From: Antedon mediterranea
Lineage: Eukaryota; Echinodermata; Crinoidea; Comatulida; Antedonidae
Assembly (NCBI RefSeq): GCF_964355755.1
Contig: NC_092674.1
Location: 16,001,001-16,065,000, forward strand
DNA: 64,000 nt
Direction of reading: 5' to 3'
Part shown: piece by piece, positions 9,201-59,900 of the stretch
How the letters are laid out: each line of letters begins with the position of its first letter
Numbering within the stretch: the stretch's first letter is position 1
Translations under genes and position numbers: made by a program
Notes under the pieces: model-generated
Database searches by the model: none
Told to the model about the DNA's origin: nothing
The model's input: only the letters and a program-made list of their open reading frames with translations

Positions 9201-12200
9201 CCGGTGGTTGCACCTTGACTGAGGAGTACTTGATCCACTAGTGGTTACAGAGTTAGCGAGTTAGCCGGCACCTCATGAGTACTCGATTCACTGGTGGTTT
9301 ACAGAGTTAGCCGGTGGTTGCACCTTGACTGAGGAGTACTTGATTCACTAGTGGTTACAGAGTTAGCCAGTGGTTGAACCTCGACTGAGGAGTACTTGAT
9401 TCACTGGTGGTTTACAGAGTTAGCCAGTGGTTGCACCTTGACTGAGGAGTACTTGATTCACTAGTGGTTACAGAGTTAGCCAGTGGTTGAACCTCGACTG
9501 AGGAGTACTTGATTCACTGGTGGTTTACAGAGTTATCCAGTGGTTATGCTTCAACTCAGGGTTACTTATTCACTAATGGTTACGTTAGTTAGCCAGTGGT
9601 TGGACCTTGACAAGAGTTCTCCGGCAGTTTTATTATTTAATTATCGTAGGAGGAGATAGGAAAATGCGAAGCCTCCTCGTATTATTGTGTGCGGGTATTT
9701 TTCAAGATGGACATCCATTAGACAGTGTATACCCCGATCGGAAAACACCCCTATTTGGGGCAAATCGTTGAACCTAAATTCGTTTTAATCATCAATAACT
9801 AATTATCTAACTCAATTTAATTAGTAAACAGGGTTACATCAGGTGGTTAAAATCAGTATCGAAAGTACGAACCAACTTTATATACCATCGAGTAAACATT
9901 CTAGAAGTAAGGCGCGATTTACCGAATTTTGCCCTTACGTAAATTTATATATAGATATAATATATAACAATCTGACTCACATTTGTTTTTTTGTTGTACT
10001 CATATAATACGAGCAATCCCATGGCTTGAGTTCCTGTAATAATACAAATACTGCATTATAGATCACATACATTAACAAGAAATAAAATTTTAATATTTTT
10101 CTTTTGAAGCGAAAAGTATATCAGCATGTCTTCAATATCCAAAATATCTGTATTGAAAATTGATTTACATGTCAACATTAATTTTGTATTGGGATATAAC
10201 ATTTTTTTTAAATGGTCAATAAAAATTGTATTTGTGTTTTATACGTACATTGCTATTAGTACTGTATTTGTTGTTAGCTTTTTTGACATTATTTAGTGGC
10301 TGAATTTCCTCCTTAGCCATAGGGTGTAGACGAGCAGCCAAGTGCTTAAGAAATTCCATGACATTTTTAGGATTCTGAGCCATCGTACCGCGTAGAGCTC
10401 GATGTGCGAATGTTGGAAATCCCACAAGATTTGCTAATCTATGTCTTGATTCAAGAAGTTTGTCCAAACAGGAAATTTGGGTTTGGTTTGGATACAAATA
10501 TACCTTATATGCAGTCTCTCTAACCTATAAATAACAATACAAAAATAACAACAAATTCATCAGCTAATCAAAAACAGTCACCTACTTTGTAATTAGAAAA
10601 GAATCCTGGTCAAAACTTGGAATAATTCACAAATTTATGTGGTCATCCCTCAAATGAGAAATACAGTATAATAGAGTGTGGTTTGCCAAATCAATTTAAT
10701 ATAAAACTAACTCCAAACTAGAATTTAATTCGTCACTTTGACGAATTATAGGTGATCATTTTTATCCTTTTAATGAAATTAACATTTTTTAAACATGCAC
10801 GTACGTTAACATACGATCGTAAAAAGCTGATGTACGCCATCCTATGACATGATGCATATACACTTATAGTGCTGAGTTGTACCTATTATGTGTCATATAC
10901 AATATGTACAGTACAGTATATACTGTATATCTATATACAGTGTAGCATAGGTGAAATTACGGGATCCACATCATGATCAAATTTTTTGGTATGATGGAAT
11001 TATCAAAATAAACTCGAAGATGACAATTTCGAAAAATAATGAATTGAGCAAATAAATATAAGGATTGGAAGAGAATTTGACACGTAGAAGCGCAATGCGC
11101 GCTCTTTGAAATTTGTATAACTTCGACTAAAGAAATTTAAAAACAACGTTTTAACTTCAACTGGCCATATGATAACATCACAACATCCAATAGGCTTAAT
11201 TTTTATATGAATTCAAATCTACATTTCATCAGCTTTCATAATAAGTTATAATCTTCAAGGTCACCTTTAATTCTGAAGAGCTATAAGATATTCAAATGTA
11301 TGGTGTAGCTGAAATTACACGACCTAGGTTATTCAAGTTTTTACGCGTGATGACGTCATCAAAATAAAAATGTTGACAACTCATTAGAAGAATAATTAAT
11401 TGAGCAAGCATATACTAAAAGTTGTGCGAAAATCGGGCTCAAATAACGGAGATGCGCTCTATTGAATGTGATAACCCACACAAAAAGATAAAAATTCCTA
11501 ATTTTTAAATTCAAGTGGCCAGTTAATGACGTCATACCATTTTGTACGTCTAATGTGTATATACATTTGTATCTACAACTTATTGGCTTCCATAATAAGT
11601 TAAAAAAATTGGGGGTCACCTGCCATTCTGAAGAGTTATATTCATTTTAAGAAGGCCTTATTTTTCACCATTTTCATCACTTTGATGAAATTAATTTGCG
11701 CATTTTGTCATTTTTAACTTGCTCGTATAGCGTTATTTTAAGTCGGAACTGACTCAAATTTGGTGAATGTACTAAGAATGGTGAGTAGAATGAGATTTGT
11801 AAAAATCATATTTTTTACGCTTTTTAAGTATCGCGCGCGCAAAATTTTTTTTTGCGCAGTAATTTTTTGAAACACGCAAATGGCCTAATTCATGCTCTAA
11901 ATTGATCAAAACTTAATTTTGAGCGTTTTAAATTTTTAACGCGCGATTTCACGCGCATGACCCTACGTGCACGTGCGTTTTTATTTGCTAATATTTTTAC
12001 CCTTGACCTGAAGTTTACGTGTAGTGAATTTCATTAATATGTCATAATGAATTATGGAGATATGATTGATAATGTGATTTTGCAAAATGGCGTATAAATG
12101 ACGTCACGGATGAGTGATCCCGCTGGAAAGCTTATTAGGATTAAGTTATATTATTTGAAAGATTTTCTGAAATTTTGGTAATAATTGACATTAAACTTTT

Positions 12201-15200
12201 TGAGATAATTGTTACACAAAATAGTGTACAGAAACAATAAAAAGACTAGACATGTAACTCGTAACTTTGACGAGTTTGGTTATCCGCCGCGCAAGTGGTG
12301 CAACATTAACATTAAGGGGATAGGTTGAGGACAAAAGGAAGTGTTCACGTTGGCATTATGAACTGAACTGAAGAATATGATCTGTTGTTATTGCTGAATT
12401 TTATTATTTAAATTCATATATAGTATACACAGTATAATCTGTATCCATATCACATACAGTGTAGAATAGGTGAAATTACGGGACCCGCTATTTATTACAA
12501 TTTTTAACATGTTGACGGTTTTAAAATGAAACGCGAAGTTAGCAATTCCGAAAGGAAATTATCTCAGCAACAACGTATTAGCGTGTAGAAGAAATTTGAA
12601 TACGTGAAATATTGATGCGCGCTCTTTTAAATGTAATGAATTATGACGCAAAAGATGAAAATACGACCTTTTTTATTTAACTGGCCATATGATGACGTCA
12701 CAACATCCGATTGGCAACATTTTTACATAATTTCGTATCTACAATCCAATAGCTTCCAGAAAAAGTTTTAATCGTGATTATCAAGTTTTATTCTTACGAG
12801 CTATAACAGATTAAAATTTACTGTAAAGATGAAATTGATGCCACACGTGATTAAAATTTTTAGGCATGATGACGTCAAAAAAATTAAAATATTTTTAACT
12901 CATGCGAAAGATACTTGATTGACCTAGACAAAATCAAAATCGGGGTGAAAATGGAAACGGATAAGTGGAGATGCGCTCTATTCAATGTGATGAGCTATGA
13001 CGAAAGATACAAAAATCCTAAATTTTATATTCGCGTGGCCATACGATGACGTCACAATGTCCGGTTAGCCATATTAATACCTGATCCGATATCTACAACT
13101 CATCTACTTCCAGAATATGCCATCCACAAAAAGTTGACGGTCTAGTTTAGAAATTACGACTGTTTAAAAAAAGGCATATTTTAAACGAATTTTTTAACCT
13201 TTTCATAAAAAACGCGCGCAAATTGTCCAATTCGACGTGCTCGTATGACGTATCTTTAAGTCGAAATTGTTTAAAATTTGGTAAAATTACTAGAAAAGGC
13301 TGGAAAAATATAAATCACGTGAAAAAAGTACGTTTTCAATACTACGTGCGCACCGCACACGTAAAAATGTGCGCACGCGTGGGAATTTTTGACATGCTTA
13401 AAACGACATGAAACGCGTAGAAAGTTGATTATAAATTAATTTTGCGCATTTTGAAATTTTAAATGCGCGTGCGCGCGTAACTTTGTGTAAAACACGCAAT
13501 TTTTTTTCAACAGAAAGTTAGCGCATGATATAAATTAAACTTTTGCAAAGTTTCAAGTTGAAATGTTATTTGGTTGTCGAGCTATGTTAAATACGACAAA
13601 ATCATTAAATCGCGCGTAAGTCACGTTGCGCAATTGTAAACGTCATGAAAAGCTTCGCTTGACGACGTTACGTAAATGTCAATATGTTAAGATAGTTACC
13701 GAAATGTTATGTTTGCGAGTTTTAGAGAAAAGCGTTACACAAAAATCATACAGGTTGATTTCGTACAATCACAAGAGGTTATCCTGCAACTTCGTTGCGG
13801 ATAACCAAAAACTAGACATGAAACTCGTCACTTTGACGAGTTAGTTATCCGCACGACAAATGCCACGTGCACGTCATACTTTGGAATATTGCACACAGAA
13901 AAAGATTATGACATTATGACCTGAACTGAAGAATATCATATCTTGTTAGTGCTGAATTCTGTCTATTTTGTGTCATATAGTATATACAGTATAATCTGTA
14001 TACATATTACATACAGTGTAGAATAGGTGAAATTACGGGACCCACCGTTTATTCCAATTTTTAACATGGTGACGGTATTAAAATTAAACACTAAGATAGC
14101 AATTTCGGAAGGACATTATCTCACCAACAACATATTAACGTGTAGAAGAAATTTGAATACGTAGAATATGGATGCGTGCTCGTTTAAATGTGATGAACTA
14201 TGCCGCATAATATCAAAATACGACTTTTTTTATTCAACTGGCCATATGATAACTTCACAACATCCGATTGGCAAAATGTTCACATTAATTCGTATCTACA
14301 GTCCAATAGCTTCCAGAAAATGTTTTAATCATAATTATAGCTTTTTATTCTTACAAGCTATAACAGATTAAAATTTACTGTAAAGATGAAATTAATGACC
14401 CTGTTAATTATACTTTTTAGGCATGATGACGTCATAAAAATTAAAATATTTTTAACTCATGCGTAAGATAGTTGATTGACCTAGAAAATATTAAAGTCTT
14501 GGAAAAAAGGGAATACAGATAGGCGTGATGCGCTCCATTGAATATGATGAGCAATAACGAAAGAGACAAAAATCCTATATTTTACATTCGTGTGGCCATA
14601 CGATGACGTCACAATGTCCGGTTAGCCATATCGATTCATGATCCGATATCTACAACTCTTCAACTTCCAGAATATGTAATTAAAAAAAAGTTCACCTCGT
14701 TGTTTAGAATCTATGACTGTTTAAAAAAAGGCATAATTTTGACCAATTTTTAAACTTTTTCATCAAAAACGCACGTAAATTATCCAATTCAACGTGCCCG
14801 TATGACGTAGTTTTAAGTCGAAATTGTTTAAAAGTTGGTAAAAGTACTAGAAAAGGCTGAAAAAACTGAAATCACAAAAAAAAATTGTTTTCAACGCTAC
14901 GTTCGCACCATGCGCGTAAAAAAATGCGCGCGCGTGGGAATTTTTTACATGCTTAAAATTACATGAAACGCGTAGAAAGTTGATTAGAAATTGATTTTTC
15001 GCATTTTCAAATTTTAAACGCGCGTGCGCGCGTAACTTCGTGTAAAACATGCCATTTTTTCCCTATAGTCAGTTAGCGCAAGATATAACTTAAACTTTTT
15101 GTCAAGTTTCATATTAAATTGTTATATGGTTTTCGATCTATGTTAAATACGCGAAATTCGTAAAAACGCGCGTAAGTCATGTTGCGCAACTCTGACGTCA

Positions 15201-18200
15201 TTCAAAATAGGAGGTGCACAATTTCACATAAATGCCCACATGTTGACAAAGTTATGAAATGTTATGTTTACACGTTTTTGAATTACGCGTGACACAAAAA
15301 TGACAGAAAGAAAGAAGAATACAGAAAAAAAAGATGATGAAACAGGACAGTTACAAGGAGTTATCCGCTGAATGCGGATAACTAAAAAATAAAGATTTCA
15401 TACAATAACAATAGGTGATCATTTAGATTCCAAATGATCACCTAATAACAAGAGGCAAGTCATGATTCAACGTTTCGATCTTTATCTGATCATCATCAGG
15501 AAGAAACAATAATTCCAAAGGCAGACAATTATAACTACAGTCTATTCATAATTATGTAAATGAGATATAAACAATTAGCCATGCAGTGTGTTAGAAAGAA
15601 AATTTGTTAGGAGTAGTGTCTATATGTTAGTGAAGGAAGACATATTAAAATTGAAATTGTATTTAACTAATAAATGCATTAAAAGTAGACAATTTCCAAC
15701 ACATTTTTAGCTCTCTATTATAGTTTCTCTTTTGCTGCTCCATAGAAACACAGAAATTATTATTCTTTCACTTCAACATTCATTATGCGAACAGGGTGCA
15801 AGAAACATGTCATGTAAAAGCATCAATTTAAAGGATTTATTTGTTAATTTTTTATGCGATTGAACTTCATAAATGTACTTATGAGACCTAATTCAGAGGT
15901 GTGCTATTCATGATTACAAGTTAGTTAACGAATTTGGAGCTGAAATTTAGCGCAAGAATTGATATGTTTATAAAAGGAATCTGGAATCAATATTGTTGAA
16001 GAAACACTTACAAGTTCACTGTGATGATCTGAATGTAATGAACTAATCATAACATTATTACCATCAACTGTGAAACCGTTGCGGATATGTTCTGGAAGCT
16101 GATTTTTGTGTAAAGCTGTTGGCATCTGGGTCCCTTGCATGAATTGACTACCAAGAAGTAGAATATCTTCATTCAGTTTTACAGCTTCTAATCTCTATTT
16201 ATGATAAATTTATTTTATAAAAAATTGTTTATAACAAAAAGATATGTGATATAGATAATTTAAACAAAATTTCACTGGCAAGAAATTGTTGGAAGTATGC
16301 ATTGATTACCAATTATCAGAAAAAGTTATAGTAGAAACACAGCTTACGTCACGGTATTTGTACTCTAGATATATCCAGGTAGCAGTATTTGTTTGTAGTG
16401 TGCAGTAGGTATGCAAGATTACTTAGGTTTGTAATGAATATCATACAGCATGAATGAGTATACAGTGCAAATGAGGGGGATGTATAATATACAGAAAAAC
16501 ATTACCATGGATTGAAATAGACATACTGTAGATTATACAAGATGATGCTTTAATAAAAAAACCTTTTATAGTTCATTAGTTAGTTTCAATAATGATTCAC
16601 CTTTGTTTCATCTAAGTGTATTCCACTTTGCTCAAAATCAAACAGGAACAACTGAGCAACTTTTCTTGATTCTTCATCCATTGAGTCCATGGCGTCTTTG
16701 CAATCTAACAACCTTTTAATTGACTGGTGTAATTCAACATTTGTATTTAACCTTGATAAGATTATAAATAAACTTGTTTTATTTCTCATTGCACCATTTC
16801 ATGCCGAATAACAGTATTTGAATATATATTCTGTTAGAGCTAATATTTACATTGTGAACAATTTAACACCAAAATGAACTCAATATGTCCAGTAAATCCA
16901 GAGATATAGCATGTTTGTATGAAAAAAGCGGCCATTTTGTTTACACAAATTGCTTTGCAAACAAATTCTGATGATATCGAGAATCAAAATCCATAAAAGA
17001 AAAACTATAGAAAACATTGCAAGGTTAAACTCCTTGGCTGCTGGACTAATTATATTATTATTATTATCACTAGGAGCATTTTCAAAATGACACTAGGGAC
17101 TTTTCGATTTGAGTGAACATGCACAAAGCTCTTGTCCACAGGTTGTAGACTGGTTTACAGATATATATGGTGCGCCAAGCTGTCATTTATTCAAGCAATA
17201 GAGATATCTTAGTTTTTAATAGAGATATCTTAGTTTTAAATAAAGATATCTTAGTTTTAAATAGACATATCTTAGTTTAAATAGAGATATCTCTGTTAAA
17301 AAATAAGATATCTCTAATTAAAACTAAGATATCTTAGTTTTTAATAGAGATATCTCTGTTAATAGAGATATCTCTAATAATACAGATATCTTAGTTTTGT
17401 TTCCTGTTGCAAAGTATGAAGGGAAGGGTATATTTGTGAACATGGTGGGAAGTGTGCCATATAGAATGGAAGATTGTCCCATTAGGGACATCCCAAGGTG
17501 TTTATAGTTGTTGGTTTCTAGATCAGACAGGTATAAGCTACACTGCTACAACTAGTATTGTTAGTATATTATAAAACGGAAAATAAAATTGTTGCGGAGA
17601 GAACCGATATTGTACTGTATTAATTTTGTGGAGTTTCAAATTGTAATGATACATTTAAAACATGCATCATTAAAAGGCAGATCCCGGCACAGATCCAAGG
17701 GATGTGGGCTCTTATACCGAGCATTTGGAAAGTTGAAAAATCTAGTAAAAAGAAGTGAAAAGGGACACCCATCGACATCACAAACGAACAAATCTCAAAC
17801 TAGTCTTTTTTCAAGAATGAAGAGATTTATACATATCGGTCGAAAACAAAAAATAAGGTTTAATACTGTTCTACGACACTCACAATAAAATCGAATTTCT
17901 GTAATATTTTTGGAGAAACCATTCTCCGTCCTCAGCGGAAGTTGACTGTCTGACGACTGATTGACCCCCTACTTCTAGACGCAGATGGCGTCCTACTAGG
18001 TGTTTCTAGTAGAGAGTCATAGACTTTTGAATCAGTGCTCACTAAAGGCTTGAACTATGCTATTTCACCGCGATCTATTCCGGTAGAGGATTTTGTTGTT
18101 TCAACGGAAGTGGTGACCGCCTTCATCAGCAGGAGAAAGAGGAATTACGACCTAAGGTAATCAATATTCTCAGGCATGCCATTCCTCCAAGTAGCAGTAT

Positions 18201-47997: not shown

Positions 47998-50900
47998 GTG
48001 AGTAGCCGTAGCTAGCTGCCAGCATGTACACAAATGTTATATGGAGGAGATTATTTGCAAAAAAGTACTATTTAGTATAATATGATGTTAAATAGTATGT
48101 ACTAATGCATGTGACCTATTCAATTCTACCCCGCCTTCATTTTACTGTACCTTTGTTTCAACAAACTGTCACTTTCCTCTTTTCCAATGACCATAATTTC
48201 CGTCTTTTTATGACGTACCAAATCCAAGGTGGGTGAATCACAGAAGAAAAACGAATTTATAAATAAATGGGATTTATAGCAGGCCACAATTAATACTAGA
48301 ATTAGAAAATGTCAACCAATTTGGTTACTCAAATCCAGTGTCAAAACATGTACTGTTATTCTTCTAGCAACTGCTCTAGCTCTTCTAGCCATCATCGTGT
48401 GTGTGACTACTGTACTGTATAAAAAAATCAAATAAACTTTTCTCTGTCAGACAATCGGGATCAGAAAATAAGGTCCCGATCATCTTAAGTGTTTGGCCTG
48501 AGTATCGTCTGATGTGTTCAAAATCATATTGATCCCGATTGTGCCATTTAAACAATCCATGTATACCTGGTAAATTCCACCACTACCCTACTCTGTGGAG
48601 GGCATGTTATGCCACTGGTTTTTGCGTTTAATACTTGTGTATACTGTAAGTGTTTCAAAAAGAAAATAATAATATTACAGGTCAGGGGCTCTTCTCTGTA
48701 TCATTGATAATGATTTTGCATAATGTCAAAACATATTTTCTCTCAATTTAGCAAACACTAGATTTTATAGATGCAAATTCTGATAAAGGTTCTGAAACAT
48801 GTTCAAATGAAGTAAAAACTGTGGGAGTTGTTGGAACAGGCAAGAGTTCTACATCAAAAGTGGTTTCTGATCTGCTCAGTAAGTTAATAGATTATAAGGG
48901 CTTCAGATACGAGTCATATAAAAAAAAATTATGTTTTAAACTAATCTTTTATGTAAAATATGATAGGTACACAAGTTTAGTTTATTTTCAGCTGGCTAAA
49001 AATAAACTATGAAATAGTCACTATGACGAATTATAGGTTATATGCATTGATTTAAATAAAGATAATAGATTTTTAAAAGATATATTGATTGATTGATTTT
49101 CTCAGAATCTTTAATTATTTATAATATATGATAGGATCTTGCTAACACAAATACAATAGCCGGTATCACAATCCGATCACAGATCCCTATGCGATGTCAT
49201 AAACCACATTTGTTACATAATAATAAAGACATAAGTTACTTTTTATCTAGATTTCATTATAAATCATGTGTATAATCTATACACTAAGAAATAAATTGAA
49301 CAAACAATACGGATAATAAAAAAAATCTTATTTCGTTTCCCAAGGGGAGACTCGATCTCGGTACCTTGAATGCCATAGACACGAGCACAGACCACCGAGC
49401 CATACACAACTCACTACTACAAGTTGTAGAAGAATTCCTCCGTGTATTTACTATGCAGTAACCACTTTGGTGGAGATAGATTATTATTACATATCACAAT
49501 GAATTATAATTTTTTACTATGATAACATCTTTAATATATGAACATTTTAAGAAAGAAAGTTAATGTTAAGTTTGTTATTTTGGCCTAAGAAAATGCCCTA
49601 ATTTGTTTGATTGTCGGAATATAATTTTTTTAATTTAATATGCAATAAATGATGACTTAATTAACTTTTGTTCTCTTAATTTCATAATAAATCATACATA
49701 TGATACATTTACTTCAAGAAAATGAAATGAAAAATAGGTGTTCCCGAGCATTCTGATGATCTATATTAATTTTAAAATTTAATAATAATAATTGACGGAC
49801 AAAACAGTGCTATGGAAAGAATAAATAAATAAAGATCCTGACAGAATCAATATCAATAGGTTATATGCATGATAATGCATATACGGTAACCTAATAAAGA
49901 TTCTGACAGAATCAATAGGTTATACTGTATGCATGATAATGCATATAACCTAATATTTACCTTCACCAAGGATGTATATGTAAATCGATCACGTGTGTTT
50001 GTATGTTTGTTTGTTAGCAGGATTACTCAAAAAGTAATTACAAGATCATTCCCAAAATGAAAATACAGATACAGTAGATATGTGGTTAAGGACCATTCCA
50101 TTACCTTTTAGGGAATCCAGACCATGGTCCCAATTCTGGACCACTTTTTAAAATTATTTTCAGACTTGCTACAGTAGTGTTAAAAGATAGGACAGAAATT
50201 TCAAAAGCTGGTGAGCAGTAACAAGTAAACTAAAATTGCATTTTCTCGAGAACTACTTCTCCAAAAAACTTTATTTTTGTACAACAGGCAAGAGTTATAA
50301 TTTGTAATTTTAAAACATAATTTGATTCAATATGCACGTTTTTTGATGCGAGTAGTTTAAAACCCTATTTCTTTTCAAATTCACTCGTTTGATTTTCGCG
50401 TTGCTGTTCTATTGTTAGTCAACTAAAGCTATTGTTAATTGAAATGCTTGTTACATAACCATTATACCAAACTCGCATACACATGCTTGTAGTAAAATTA
50501 GCCTAAACCACACACAGCATTAAGACACACACTTTCTGGTGACTAAATCTGATGTAGAAGAATTTTACAGTAGGCGGAAGTATGCACTCTCGGAGTGGCT
50601 TTCTAGTTAAAAAGGGTATCAGTATGGTTTTAAAAATCATTTTGCGTTTCTTTTATTTAACAATAACATTATTTTTGGGCGAAAGGTATATACAGCACCC
50701 TCCGCTATTCCTATATAGAATGCAACCAGGCCCATCATTTCTTAACTTTAGTGATCTGACGAGAACCAGTGTTTCAACACAGTATGGCCATATGTGGGAA
50801 TGTTTAATTTCCCACAATTTTTGTTTGATCATGTACAATACAATATAATCAGAGAGTAACAGTAACACCTTACATTCTATTACATTTACTACTAATGTAC

Positions 50901-53900: not shown

Positions 53901-56900
53901 GCATCTATTTCTAATGGTTATTATTATGGTGAAAAGTTTATAAATATTTTAATGGAAACATAATGGCTAAACGAGCATACCTCTTCCTGATGCCTGCCAC
54001 CACTATATCCGGATACTATAATATGAAAAATATCCACCTTAAATATGTTACTATACAATGAGTATACTGTTTTGAAATATGATTAATATTACGATTATTA
54101 CCTTTTTTTAGGAGACTACAACAATTATGCAGATTACATTAAGAATGTGTCATTTAAAGGTGTGACCAAGGAAAGGTTTGGTTTTGACAATAATGGTGAT
54201 CCTTATGCTAGATACAAAATATTCAACTTACAGGTAAAATGTACATTGCCTTTTATAAAAGCCCTATCAAACCACCACCTCTCTATTCCAATATAAAATA
54301 AATATTCTGTCCAATTTTAATTATTTTATTTTTAATGTAAACAGAAATCTAACAAGTTTGAAAAGGTAATGGAATGGGATCCAGATGAAGGTTTTACTGT
54401 TCAAAATACCCAGACTCAATGGAAAAATGGAATGAATCCACCTATAGGAAGATGCTCTGAATCGTGTCCATCTGGAACATACCAGCAGGCGGGAAAACTT
54501 GCCTGCTGTTGGTTTTGTGAACCTTGCGAAGGTGATCACTTTTTTTCTGTTTATAAACCAATTACAACTATGAATGAATGAAAAGGAAGTCATGATTTAA
54601 TATGTTGGTAGTTATTTTATATATTAAAATCAACTAAAATATTGACTTGATTATAAATATTCAAAAAATCTTATTTTATGCTATATCATCTACATTATAT
54701 ATTCTATCTTTAATTCTACATATTGTTGAAGGCCAGGTGCGAGTAAAAAATGTCTATCGATCATACATTCCAATAATTATCGATCTATAGTTTCCCCTAA
54801 GTTTCATAATTTTGGGACTTTATTTGTGTTACACAAGCTTGTTGAAAATAAGCAGTTTGTTATCAGGGGGGGAGGCGGAATAAGTTCAAATTAAACAGTA
54901 AAATCTCAATTCTTTTGTACACAAATGTTGTAATAGAGAGGCATTTTTAAAAACTATGAAAAATAAATGGTGTGGTAAAAAATGATTTCTCTTACAAATA
55001 TTTGATTTATGTACAATTAACAAGATATTATATATAAAATGTATGCCTGTACCTGAGCTTAAAAAATCTATTGTATGGCCAACAACTGTTTTTAATTTTT
55101 TTTTTCTTCATAAGCAGATAGATGGTACACTACTACAAGTGATGAAAAGGCATGTCTATTGTGCGAGAAAGGATTTAGTGTTAATCCTGAACAAACGGAC
55201 TGCTTGCAAAATGATATTGTTTACCTTGAATGGTCTTCATCGGCTACAATTTTACTAATTGTGTTTGTGATACTAGGAATGATATTAGCCATAGGTTGTC
55301 TAATAGTATATATCAGGTATCGTAATACACCCACAATCAAAGCTACCAGTACTGAGCTAAGCTATGTCCTTGGTATTGGAGTTATTGTCAGCTTCTTGTG
55401 CACATTCATGTTCATGGGAAAGCCAACAGATTTTATCTGCAATGCACGTTTAGTAATGATGGGTGTAAGCTTCTCCATTTATGTTGGTGCTTTGCTTATG
55501 AAGACCAATCGAATCTCTAGAATATTTAATCGAAAATTATCTGATGGCAGCCCGTCCATTTACTTGAACATCAAGGTAAGATGCATTCAAATATAAAGTA
55601 ATTTGTGACTAGAAAATTCAATATTAAAATATATGATTTTTTAGTCTCGCATCAATTTAATTTTACGTTATGCAAAAATTGACCATATTATTTGTGTGCT
55701 CGGGACACCCCCACAAACAAACAAATATAAAAATTGAAAAACAAAAATGAAGAATACTTATTCTTGCAGCATTGATTATTACATTTTAATACTTGCTACT
55801 GCATATTATAATAAGGTTTTTTTTATAGATTGTTATAATATTATATGTAAACTTTTATTACATGATTTTACTGTGAAAAAATTCAGTTGAGATACAAACT
55901 TAACATAACAAATTCATGGACTATATTTCTTATTCTTAATTTATCTCACCAACTCATTTTTGTTGTGAGTTTTAAATGTTCCTTGTTTGTTGCAGTACCA
56001 GCTGCTGTTTATATTTGTAATTGTGATGATACTTGTAGTTGTACAAGGTATGCTTATCTACTCCTCTCCTTCAATACAAGAGTATTATTTGTCAACGACT
56101 ACCACCTACATTCAATGCAAGCACAGTTCTTTGGCTGAACCAGTTGCAGTTATAGGTAAACACTATGCAGTTTTAGTAACTATCAATTTTACCACTTGAA
56201 GACTTGACTTCTGTAATGAATTATTTTTTGGCTCAAAGAAATCAAACGTTTTCAACTTTTACAAAGGGAAGCTGCTAGGCTGGTGTACCCCTTAGGAAAT
56301 ATGAACATGTCTCTTACAAAATGTCAGTGTTATATTCTTGTATGCGATATTTATTTGCTATTGTATTTCAACTTTAGAGAGGGTTTGTGTGTTAGCAGGG
56401 CCACGTCAAAATTATACTTTATATAGTAAATATTTAAAGTCTTTAATAATAATATTAATTTATTTGAAACTTTACTTTTACAACAATGGTACACTTTGAT
56501 GATAAAATAAATGCAAAAAAAAAAATTTTGTGTGAAATACAGCATACAAAAGTAAATCAAACTAGACTTGAACTCATCACTTTGACGAGTTAGTTATCCG
56601 CATCACAAACGCCACGCGCATACATTAAGCCTGGTTTAAGTAAAATGCGCACAGAAAAAAGATTTATATGCTATTATGATCTGAATATCACGGACATTGA
56701 ACTTGTCAGTGCTCTCTATTTTGTGTTCAAGTATATAGGCCTACAGTATACTACATACAGTTTAGCTTAGGTGAAAATATGGGACCCGCCTTTAATTAAT
56801 TTTTAACATGATGACGTCTTCAAAATGAAAGACGAAAATAGCACTTTTGGATAAAAATTGTCTGAGCAACAACATATTAACGTGTAAAAGAAATGTGAAT

Positions 56901-59900
56901 ATGTAGAATATTGATGCGCGTTCTTTTAAATTCGGTGAACTATGACTCAAAATATGAAAATACAACTCTTATAATTCAACTGGCTATATGTTGACGTCAC
57001 AACATCCGATGCGCAAAATTTGTACATGAATTTGTATCTACAATTCAACAGCTTCCAGAAACGTTTTAATCATGAGTATCACTTTTCATTCATACTGAAA
57101 TTTACTTTTGAACACGCTTTTGTTTGACACAATGTCCGGTTAGCCATATTGATGCATGATCTGATATCTACAACTCATCAACTTCCAGAATATTTAATAA
57201 AAATAAACTTCACCGTTTTGTTTAGAAACTATGACTGTTTAAATAAAGGAATAATTTTGTTGAATTTTTGAACTTTTTCATCAAAAACGCGTTTGAATTG
57301 TCCAATTCGATGTGCTCATATGACGTGATTTTAAGTCTTAATTGTTTAAAAGTTGGAAAAATTACTAGAAAAGGCTGGAAAAACATAATTAACGGCAAAA
57401 AAAAATGTTCTTAATGTTACGTGCACACCAGGTGCGTAAAAAATTGCAAATTTTTACATGCTTAAAATGACATAGAACTTTATTTTTCCTTTCATCAAAT
57501 TTTGTGCGTGCGCGTAACTTTCAACATGAAACAAGACATTTTTTTTCGACAGAAAGTTAGCACAAGATTTAAATTACAGTTTCGCTAAGTTTCAATTTAA
57601 ATTGTTATATGGTTTTCAATCTTATTAAATATGCGAAATTCATAAAATCATGTGTAAGTCCTGTTGCGCAACTCTGACATCATTCAAAAGTAGGAAGTGC
57701 ACAACTTAACGTAAATGGCCATATGTTGACAAATTTTATAAAATGTTATGTTTACACGTTTTAGAGATACGCGAGACACAAAATTGACAGAAAGAAAGAA
57801 TAATACAGAAAAAAAAACATGATTTCATACAATAACAAGGAGTTATCCGCCGAGTGAATGAATCAAAATCATAATTAATAGAATGTAGTGTGAAATACAA
57901 AACATAAATACACGAAATAAATAAAAAAAATGAATCAAAATTAATAAAGTGTGTTGCGTTTAGATACACACAAAAGGCATTTAGAAATAAATTAATTTCA
58001 TGGTATGAATTAAAATAAAGAATATAATGTGTTGGGTGTAATACACAACACTAAGGCATAAAATTAAACAAGATACTTAAAAACTTGTCGACATTAACTA
58101 AACAGAAATCAAAATTACACACAAAAGTGAAGAATAAAATCTTACATTTTTACTCTGGTTCATGGACACAGCTTAAGCATGAGTGAGTCCATGTAACTTG
58201 GAAATATTATGCCCTCCTCTCTTTTCATACAGTAGTATTACCATGTTTTCTTATTTTAATGGACTATTTTATTTGTCTGTCTCTACATGAAGATTCCATG
58301 GCCAAAATTGATTTATACTATACTACTAAGGAGTTTTGCGCAGTTTTATTCATGCTTATTTTTTATGATACAGTATATTATGTTATTATATCAAGATTTT
58401 GATTATGATCACTTTCAGTGTACAACTTGGCGTTGGCTTTGCTGTGTGGATACCAAGCTTTTCGTATCCGCAAATTACCAGGCCAGTTCAATGATTCCAG
58501 ATCAATATCGTTCACGATCCTCACATGTTGTCTGATATGGTTCATCTTCTTAGCATCAATGTTTACCAAGAATGGCTACAATAAGACAATCATTAGCTGT
58601 ATTGGTTTTATTGCAAATGGACTGTCTGCACTTTTCTGTATGTTCTTTCCTAAAGTATGGATAATCTACATGCACCCAGAAATGAATGTTCGACAATCCA
58701 CAATTAATATGAAAAATGCAAGTCATATAGCAATCTCAACTGTAAGTGGTTCTTTATTTGTACTGTATGTCATTCTGTCTGCATCTGTATTATTGTCAAT
58801 TAAAAATGAAATGAACAATTAATTTGTTTTTTTTATAAAACTATATGATTTTTATACTTATTCTATGTTCCGAAAAATATTTTATAAAATATATTTCATT
58901 AAAATATTTTGCTGGTATTAAATTGATGGAAAAATATCACATTGAAAAAATACTGGTTAGAGGCCACTGCATTACAAAGTGATTTATGACCATCATTGTG
59001 AATGGGGGTAATTATGATCATATACTAATGAACCTAATTTTACCAACCTTTTGTATCCACCAACCATATTCTGAACTATCCCAACTCAATTGTATTTATA
59101 TTGGTATTACAACCATTACCAGCCAATTCTGAAATAGATTACACCATGTACACTCCTGATGAAAATTTTTATGATTATTATATTTTTTCACTATCCAGAC
59201 ATTGCAAGTCACACATTTTGGGGTTTTTATTATAGAAAAAGTATCCCTACATTTTTTCAATCTAATTTAAGGTCACAAATTGAACTACACATATCAGTAA
59301 TAAATGTATTAATCCCTCATGGAGCAATAAACAAAAGAATGAGATGAGACTATTATGGCCCTAATGGCCGCCCATATACATCAGCTTACAACGTTTTGGT
59401 TTTCATTATGATTTTATCTCCTGGTTTCGTAGTTATCTTAATGGTAGGTTCCAGAGAGTGGTCATTGAGGGTATATCCTCTGAATGGCTTCCTATTCAGT
59501 CCGGTGTCCCTCAGGGATCGATTCTTGGTCCTCTCCTTTTCAATCTTTTTGTCAATGATATCCCAAAACTCTTCACCCACTCCAGATGTCTTATGTTTGC
59601 TGATGATGTTAAGCTATACAAAATTATTGGTAGTGTTGAGGATGCTGACAGGCTTCAGGTGGACTTGGACAAGCTATGTTCTTGGGCAGCTTTATGGGGT
59701 ATGTCCCTCAATCCAGTAAAGTGCAATATTTTAACTATTACTTTGAAAAAGAACATTTTATTTTATAATTATTTAATTAATGACAATCCCATTAATAGGG
59801 TGCAATCGCAAAAAGATCTTAGTGTTTTTATTGATAGTTCCCTTTGTTTTTCTTTTCATATTGATTATCTTGTTGGCAAGTGCAATAGACTGCTTGGGCT

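Follow-up and report, generated by a model that had tools for sequence, protein, structure and literature searches.

Introduction

Helitron2 transposons carry asymmetric terminal inverted repeats (ATIRs), and compensatory changes between them were described by Bao and Jurka in 2013 (PMC3627910). In DINE-1 elements, subterminal inverted repeats (subTIRs) differ between species and come in three types within one species, the structure being kept despite the change in sequence (Yang and Barbash 2008, PMC2374699). Helentrons have been classified by the identity of their subTIRs (Thomas 2014, PMC4067079). These papers, like those named below, are cited for particular passages. Here, we describe repeats with ends of this kind in the crinoid Antedon mediterranea, in 64,000 nucleotides of contig NC_092674.1 (positions 16,001,001 to 16,065,000, or C5:16001001-16065000 in our contig numbering; hereafter the window) and in the genome as a whole (354 Mb, 18 contigs).

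An earlier note on the window had pointed to a Helentron-like transposon group with covarying ends, in which a short arm beside the 5' hairpin changes together with the 3' terminal hairpin. The co-change is real and is kept across families with different arms, and the elements show the Helitron2/Helentron layout once they are reverse-complemented. The note did not know this arm-swapping rule as described; it is already in print (PMC3627910, PMC2374699, PMC4067079). In our view the repeats are very probably non-autonomous, HINE-like Helitron2/Helentron elements on the minus strand with ATIRs that pair, presumably moved by the RepHel-endonuclease of autonomous relatives. The structure is of a kind that is real, well supported and already understood, and the family is ordinary in itself. 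It is useful for its several families in one genome, its bracket-like nesting and a pairing between the ends that in five of six families is longer than the hairpin stem.

Orientation and anatomy of the elements

The window holds five copies, E1, E2, E3, E5 and a fifth one at 56.6 kb (Table 1). The earlier note had read them backwards. This orientation was dropped, since the reverse complement gives the published Helitron2 layout, by which the minus strand is most probably the true one. On that strand the order is a 5' ATIR folding as a hairpin, the body, the 3' ATIR, a 3' hairpin, 8-12 bases and CTAGT. The end reads (T)CTAGT in 61 of 64 cases; the 3' hairpin has a stem of 8-9 bp in 60 of 63 ends, and the gap between this hairpin and the terminus measured 8-12 bases in all 63. 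The ATIRs are asymmetric, lying 0-2 bases from one end of the element and roughly 30 from the other. As in Helitron2, each end has a hairpin, and the 5' ATIR takes part in the 5' hairpin. The plan of canonical Helitrons (Helitron1), with 5' TC, no 5' hairpin and no terminal inverted repeats, did not match; only the CTAG 3' end is common to both. T followed CTAGT on the element strand in 55 of 63 ends, many of which lie within tandem arrays. T also preceded the 5' ATIR hairpin in 61 of 66 cases and may there belong to the element.

The CTAA formerly taken for a Helitron terminus was rejected because it varies (CTAA or CCAA), whereas the CTAG of the opposite end, which in the former reading was a 5' ACTAGA, is nearly constant. 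CTAA also pairs with the other end in E2, E3 and family C, one of two further families (B and C) with ends near Rep loci.

Of the strings by which the repeats had been recognised, the shared hairpin core GTCACTTTGAC was present in all five copies, but exactly so in two, with one mismatch in the other three; at up to one mismatch the window gave 5 matches, against a maximum of 3 among 100 shuffles. The supposedly conserved string before the terminal hairpin, TTTCATACAATAACAA, fared less well: exact at two ends, it had two mismatches at a third and gave way to different strings at the ends of E3 and E5, and its 6 matches at up to three mismatches were not above chance (shuffled mean 4.9). The arms do differ by copy as claimed, E3 and the 56.6-kb copy having the same one.

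Short inverted repeats at both ends and tandem arrays might also point to MITE-like (miniature inverted-repeat) or foldback DNA transposons instead of rolling-circle elements. We consider such an origin extremely improbable: the repeats are asymmetric, the terminus is CTAG, and units encoding a RepHel-endonuclease carry such ends.

Table 1. Elements in the window and their ends, in window positions; the orientation given is the inferred one.
Feature	Position	Strand	Remarks
E1, non-autonomous Helentron-type element	10717..15445	- (true orientation inferred)	interrupted by E2 and E3
E1 true 3' terminus	10717..10725	-	ACTAGAATT on +; element strand ends ...CTAGT; 61/64 such ends = ACTAGA
E1 true 3' hairpin (5' hairpin of the earlier note)	10726..10748	-	9-bp stem
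E1 3' ATIR (arm of the earlier note)	10749..10761	-	TAGGTGATCATTT on +; 13-base complementarity to 15432-15444
E1 true 5' terminal hairpin	15412..15444	-	5' ATIR = 15432-15444
E2, complete non-autonomous element	12245..13808	-	inserted into the A-rich linker of E1
E2 3' ATIR	12276..12287	-	TTGGTTATCCGC on +
E2 true 5' terminal hairpin	13777..13808	-	T bulge in near arm; 5' ATIR = 13797-13808, GCGGATAACCAA
E3, complete non-autonomous element	13811..15385	-	nested in E1 beside E2
E3 3' ATIR	13841..13853	-	TTAGTTATCCGCA on +
E3 true 5' terminal hairpin plus AA	15359..15385	-	5' ATIR = 15373-15385
E5-type element, different body and ATIR	49006..49953	-	ATIR TAGGTTATATGCATT on +, 49034-49048
E5-type element, two tandem 5' termini	49857-49893 and 49916-49952	-	
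Fifth (56.6-kb) copy, E3-type ATIR TTAGTTATCCGCA at 56590-56602	56561..57850	-	true 5' hairpin broken after 57850

Complementarity between the two ends

The earlier note had placed the key pairing inside the terminal hairpin, said to be built exactly from the copy's own arm. This is true of the distal arm of the hairpin, which is perfectly complementary to the arm at the other end of the element, but not of the near arm, which has one extra T in E2 and is interrupted in the outer hairpin of E5. In the 56.6-kb copy the distal arm is lost. The longest match instead joins the two ends: when the first 70 bases were compared with the last 120, the longest complementarity lay between the arm and the distal hairpin arm in all nine elements.

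With one example per family, the end-to-end complementarity comprised 13 bases in E1, 12 in E2, 13 in E3, 15 in E5, 11 in B and 13 in C, compared with 13, 8, 10, 12, 10 and 10 for the stem of the terminal hairpin itself. The match between the ends thus exceeds the stem in five of six families and equals it in one, and in all six it reaches to 0-2 bases from the terminus. The extra T in the near arm was present in 18 of the 18 E2-type ends listed, breaking the hairpin while leaving the end-to-end match intact; the exact bulged hairpin, the one form searched for, has 555 copies genome-wide. Bulge and longer match together suggest that the main constraint is the pairing of the two ends, with the hairpin following from it.

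The remaining hairpin data are less telling. The near arm of E1 plus loop has 550 exact copies and the distal arm plus loop 598, a small difference that includes loop variants (as in locus L018). The interrupted near arm of E5 in the window is a single copy (up to two mismatches) and may therefore be later damage. Pairing between hairpin loops was looked for by eye only, and none was consistent across families.

Covariation of the ends and relatedness of the families

For a comparison blind to the arms, ends of the first kind were recognised by the hairpin core and those of the second by the pre-hairpin string plus the hairpin itself, with search strings picked after such ends had been inspected. 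The sample consisted of the window and 35 of 45 genomic loci (L001-L009 and L011 left out). In it there were 63 first-kind and 67 second-kind ends; 27 of the former were directly followed by the second kind within 2 kb, 16 by something else or at a greater distance, and 20 were the last in their stretch. The arm matched the reverse complement of the distal hairpin arm over at least 9 bases in 23 of the 27 pairs, which counts copies rather than independent changes because the families are few and some loci (L014, L017) are near-duplicates. In 1,000 shuffles, matches averaged 11.6 with a maximum of 18.

A second count concerned the type of the nearest exact terminal hairpin downstream of a start on contig C1 and part of C2, the strand of the palindromic ends being ignored. 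It used 91 of 100 listed E1 starts and 94 of 100 listed E5 starts (two with an E1 hairpin and four beyond C2:12.4 Mb left out), and 71 of 100 and 29 of 100 entries, respectively, for the terminal hairpins, since the lists do not all reach equally far. Among the matches listed, 33 of the 91 E1 starts had an E1- or E5-type hairpin within 2 kb, and in 33 of 33 it was E1-type; for E5 starts the figures were 18 of 94, and E5-type in 18 of 18. The E1 start pattern was free of arm letters, and that for E5 included part of the arm.

At least four such tags, as we call the ATIR sequences of the families, coexist in this genome; for three of them the number of terminal hairpins counted, exact or near-exact, was 274 to 638. 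The bodies of E1, E2 and E3 are 83-84% identical over 1.0-1.4 kb despite their different arms, and 78-85% identical over 0.6-1.0 kb (69-71% over a further stretch) to a non-autonomous copy of the type found on contig C8. E5 and E1 are alike only in the first 80 bases (79%), the E5 body being otherwise unrelated at the threshold used.

Could matching ends simply have been fixed in the founder of each family and been inherited since, with no continuing need to pair? The independent changes of the ATIR are few, with four arm sequences in the window, and the 80 bases shared by E1 and E5 between otherwise unrelated bodies leave room for module exchange instead of stepwise change. However, each founder would itself have had to gain matching changes at ends at least 1 kb apart, and the rule of matching ends holds in six of six families here as well as in other species (PMC2374699, PMC3627910). 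Common descent alone is a very improbable explanation.

Nesting and tandem arrays

Read as typed brackets, the window gives E1( E2( )E2 E3( )E3 )E1. In uninterrupted relatives of E1 the A-rich linker varies in length and contains no insertion (six copies: L016, L018, L024, L026, L028 and L033). Similar arrangements occur at C1:29218501-29238500, with E1( E2( )E2 )E1 and E1( E2( )E2 E2( )E2 )E1. For C1:12321300-12352500, a reading as E1( C( )C E3( )E3 E3( )E3 )E1 over about 26 kb is possible, assuming that nothing intervenes in 8.7 kb left unread. Among the bracket pairs that close, none of unlike type was seen, and nested copies close in the right order.

Tandem arrangements were also observed. 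The true 5' terminus is repeated six times each at L013 (5944-6314) and L010 (6653-7023), and at L036 (4679-5036) two types are interleaved. Long head-to-tail arrays of non-autonomous copies lie on C1 at 3.08-3.17, 5.69-5.82, 13.55-13.57 and 22.98-23.06 Mb, with a copy spacing of mostly 1.15-1.7 kb, and several adjoin Rep loci. At L014, L017 and L019 an E2-type terminus sits just inside an E1-type end, and the sequence beyond is shared except for a stretch of ~140 bases. Shared flanks, read-through or duplication are possible causes, and owing to a shared flank or duplication these loci cannot serve as proof that foreign ends are skipped.

Autonomous relatives

The earlier note had suggested looking for an autonomous partner encoding a Rep-helicase, and units with ends of the same plan do exist. 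The Helitron Rep domain gave 87 matches genome-wide, some of them fragments. On C8, units are repeated about every 22-23 kb. They carry one long open frame, for which two stretches were read and which contains the domains Herpes_teg_N, OTU, DUF6570, Helitron_like_N, PIF1 and Exo_endo_phos. The last of these (E 2.1e-09) follows PIF1 and represents the C-terminal AP-type endonuclease of Helentrons; this check covered the C8 unit. Tegument-like (VTD) and OTU domains are likewise known from Helentrons (PMC9741609). Six tandem termini after the frame and a start before the next frame share the element plan and the tag GGTTATCCGC. RepHel (Helitron Rep plus PIF1 helicase) is thus found in autonomous copies with these ends and this tag.

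On C1, 14 of 19 Rep places were compared with 49 of 100 listed ends, those in the middle of arrays being left out and the list reaching to C1:23101407. Among the ends listed, an end of this type lay within 20 kb on the same strand at 9 of the 14 loci: on both sides at six (9.4-13.4 and 7.0-8.3 kb), only upstream at one and only downstream at two. The loci of Rep lineage C are flanked on both sides by typed ends, part of the intervening DNA being unread. Downstream of Rep lineage D, the DNA shows 95-98% identity to E2 over 0.8-1.4 kb; this points to lineage D as the partner of E2 without proving it. For lineages E and F, no recognisable end was seen in 6 kb each. Lineage G is followed by two tandem hairpins with stem TACTTGGCCAA (L042, 1157-1252), possibly its terminus; the single pattern used to look for a start with a TACTTGGCCAA arm gave no match. 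A second Rep group with frames of 1,132-1,452 residues (C7:8918426, C1:19630172, C5:12374108 and C1:29681497) perhaps represents canonical Helitrons.

These data bear on another explanation, in which the ATIR serves as an inverted double-stranded binding site for Rep at both ends, each family having a Rep of its own specificity and the pairing being a by-product. Indeed, families B and C, with ends near Rep loci, and E2, related to the DNA downstream of lineage D, share GGTTATCCGC, and a Rep specific to E1 or E5 may exist among the lineages for which no ends were found. Yet the near arm of the terminal hairpin would then serve as a third binding site, and it carries the bulge described above throughout the listed E2-type ends. 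Further, E1 shares its body with lineage D-linked DNA and with B (82-85% in the best-aligned stretches), yet its ATIR differs. We regard site recognition as possible, though rather unlikely.

Several observations weigh against our own interpretation of pairing ATIRs served by autonomous relatives. Four of the 27 arm-blind pairs failed to match: the damaged inner end of E5 in the window, L014 and L017, where an E2-type end without an E2 start precedes an E1-type end, and L030, which is decayed. The matched pairs are copies of few families and not independent events. Brackets do not always close: four E1 ends stand against six E1 starts in the 29.2-Mb array of C1 (L043+44), a further two E1 starts and one C start at L045 have no end in view, the ends at L036 have their starts outside the stretch, and the E2-type ends of L014 and L017 have no E2 start at all. 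Among the ends listed, 5 of the 14 C1 Rep loci had no end of the searched type within 20 kb, and no autonomous element with the ATIR of E1 or E5 was found. Finally, the direction of the C8 frame is the reverse of that in Helitron2, an arrangement known in print for a minority of elements (PMC3627910, PMC4067079, PMC5148889).

Possible mechanism

Bao and Jurka proposed that pairing of the ATIRs destroys the 5' hairpin and thereby sets the endpoint of replication (PMC3627910). In line with this, the two ATIRs most likely pair as single strands once the ends meet. This pairing would open the 5' hairpin and bring the element's first base next to the foot of the 3' hairpin, which may be the point where Rep ends the replicated strand or joins the ends. 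The proteins involved would presumably be the RepHel-endonucleases of autonomous relatives in the same genome. In IS200/IS605 elements, a single-stranded guide beside a hairpin base-pairs with the cleavage region, and its sequence may vary as long as the pair is kept. The analogy is one of mechanism only; another protein family, without RepHel, is at work there.

One may speculate further that the ATIR is an address of arbitrary sequence, for which only mutual pairing matters. One RepHel could then serve several families with exclusive tags, and the tag would stop elements in nested arrays from using a foreign terminus as their end. We hold this idea to be doubtful. If it were true, E1, with a body and box like those of E2, a true 3' end like that of E5 and a matched tag not shared with either, would be a case of a tag rewritten at both ends. 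E1 looks chimeric, since its body is E2-like (83%) and its first 80 bases (window 10717-10797), the true 3' end, are E5-like (79%).

The literature cited, as far as the passages concerned go, holds no experimental demonstration of end recognition and joining in Helentrons. Several tags and typed nested insertions in one genome make a good natural data set for weighing pairing against hairpin and sequence.

Comparison with known systems

The repeats share the ATIR plan of Helitron2 in all six families compared. Three features differ from Helitron2 as described in the cited passages: the 5' ATIR forms the outer arm of an almost perfect hairpin, the 3' end reads CTAG(T), and several families with different tags occur together and are inserted into one another. 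Some features are those of FoHeli of Fusarium, namely ATIRs in hairpins, multiple 5' termini, which were attributed to self-insertion there, and reversed open frames (PMC5148889). The terminal strings differ, however, and the account of FoHeli cited reports a single case of nesting and duplications of less than 200 bp.

With Helentron, HINE and DINE-1 elements the Antedon repeats have in common a RepHel with a C-terminal endonuclease, OTU, palindromic subTIRs of 12-15 bp and families defined by identical subTIRs (PMC4067079, PMC2374699); the T mostly found beside the ends here may correspond to the T-rich TT target of those elements. In contrast to these elements as presented in the same passages, the 3' end is CTAG(T) and the tandem arrays are very long. 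A CTAG(T) 3' end has been reported for a proto-Helentron of Phytophthora (Thomas 2014, PMC4067079). As in DINE-1 of D. willistoni (PMC2374699), types with different subTIRs occur here within one genome.

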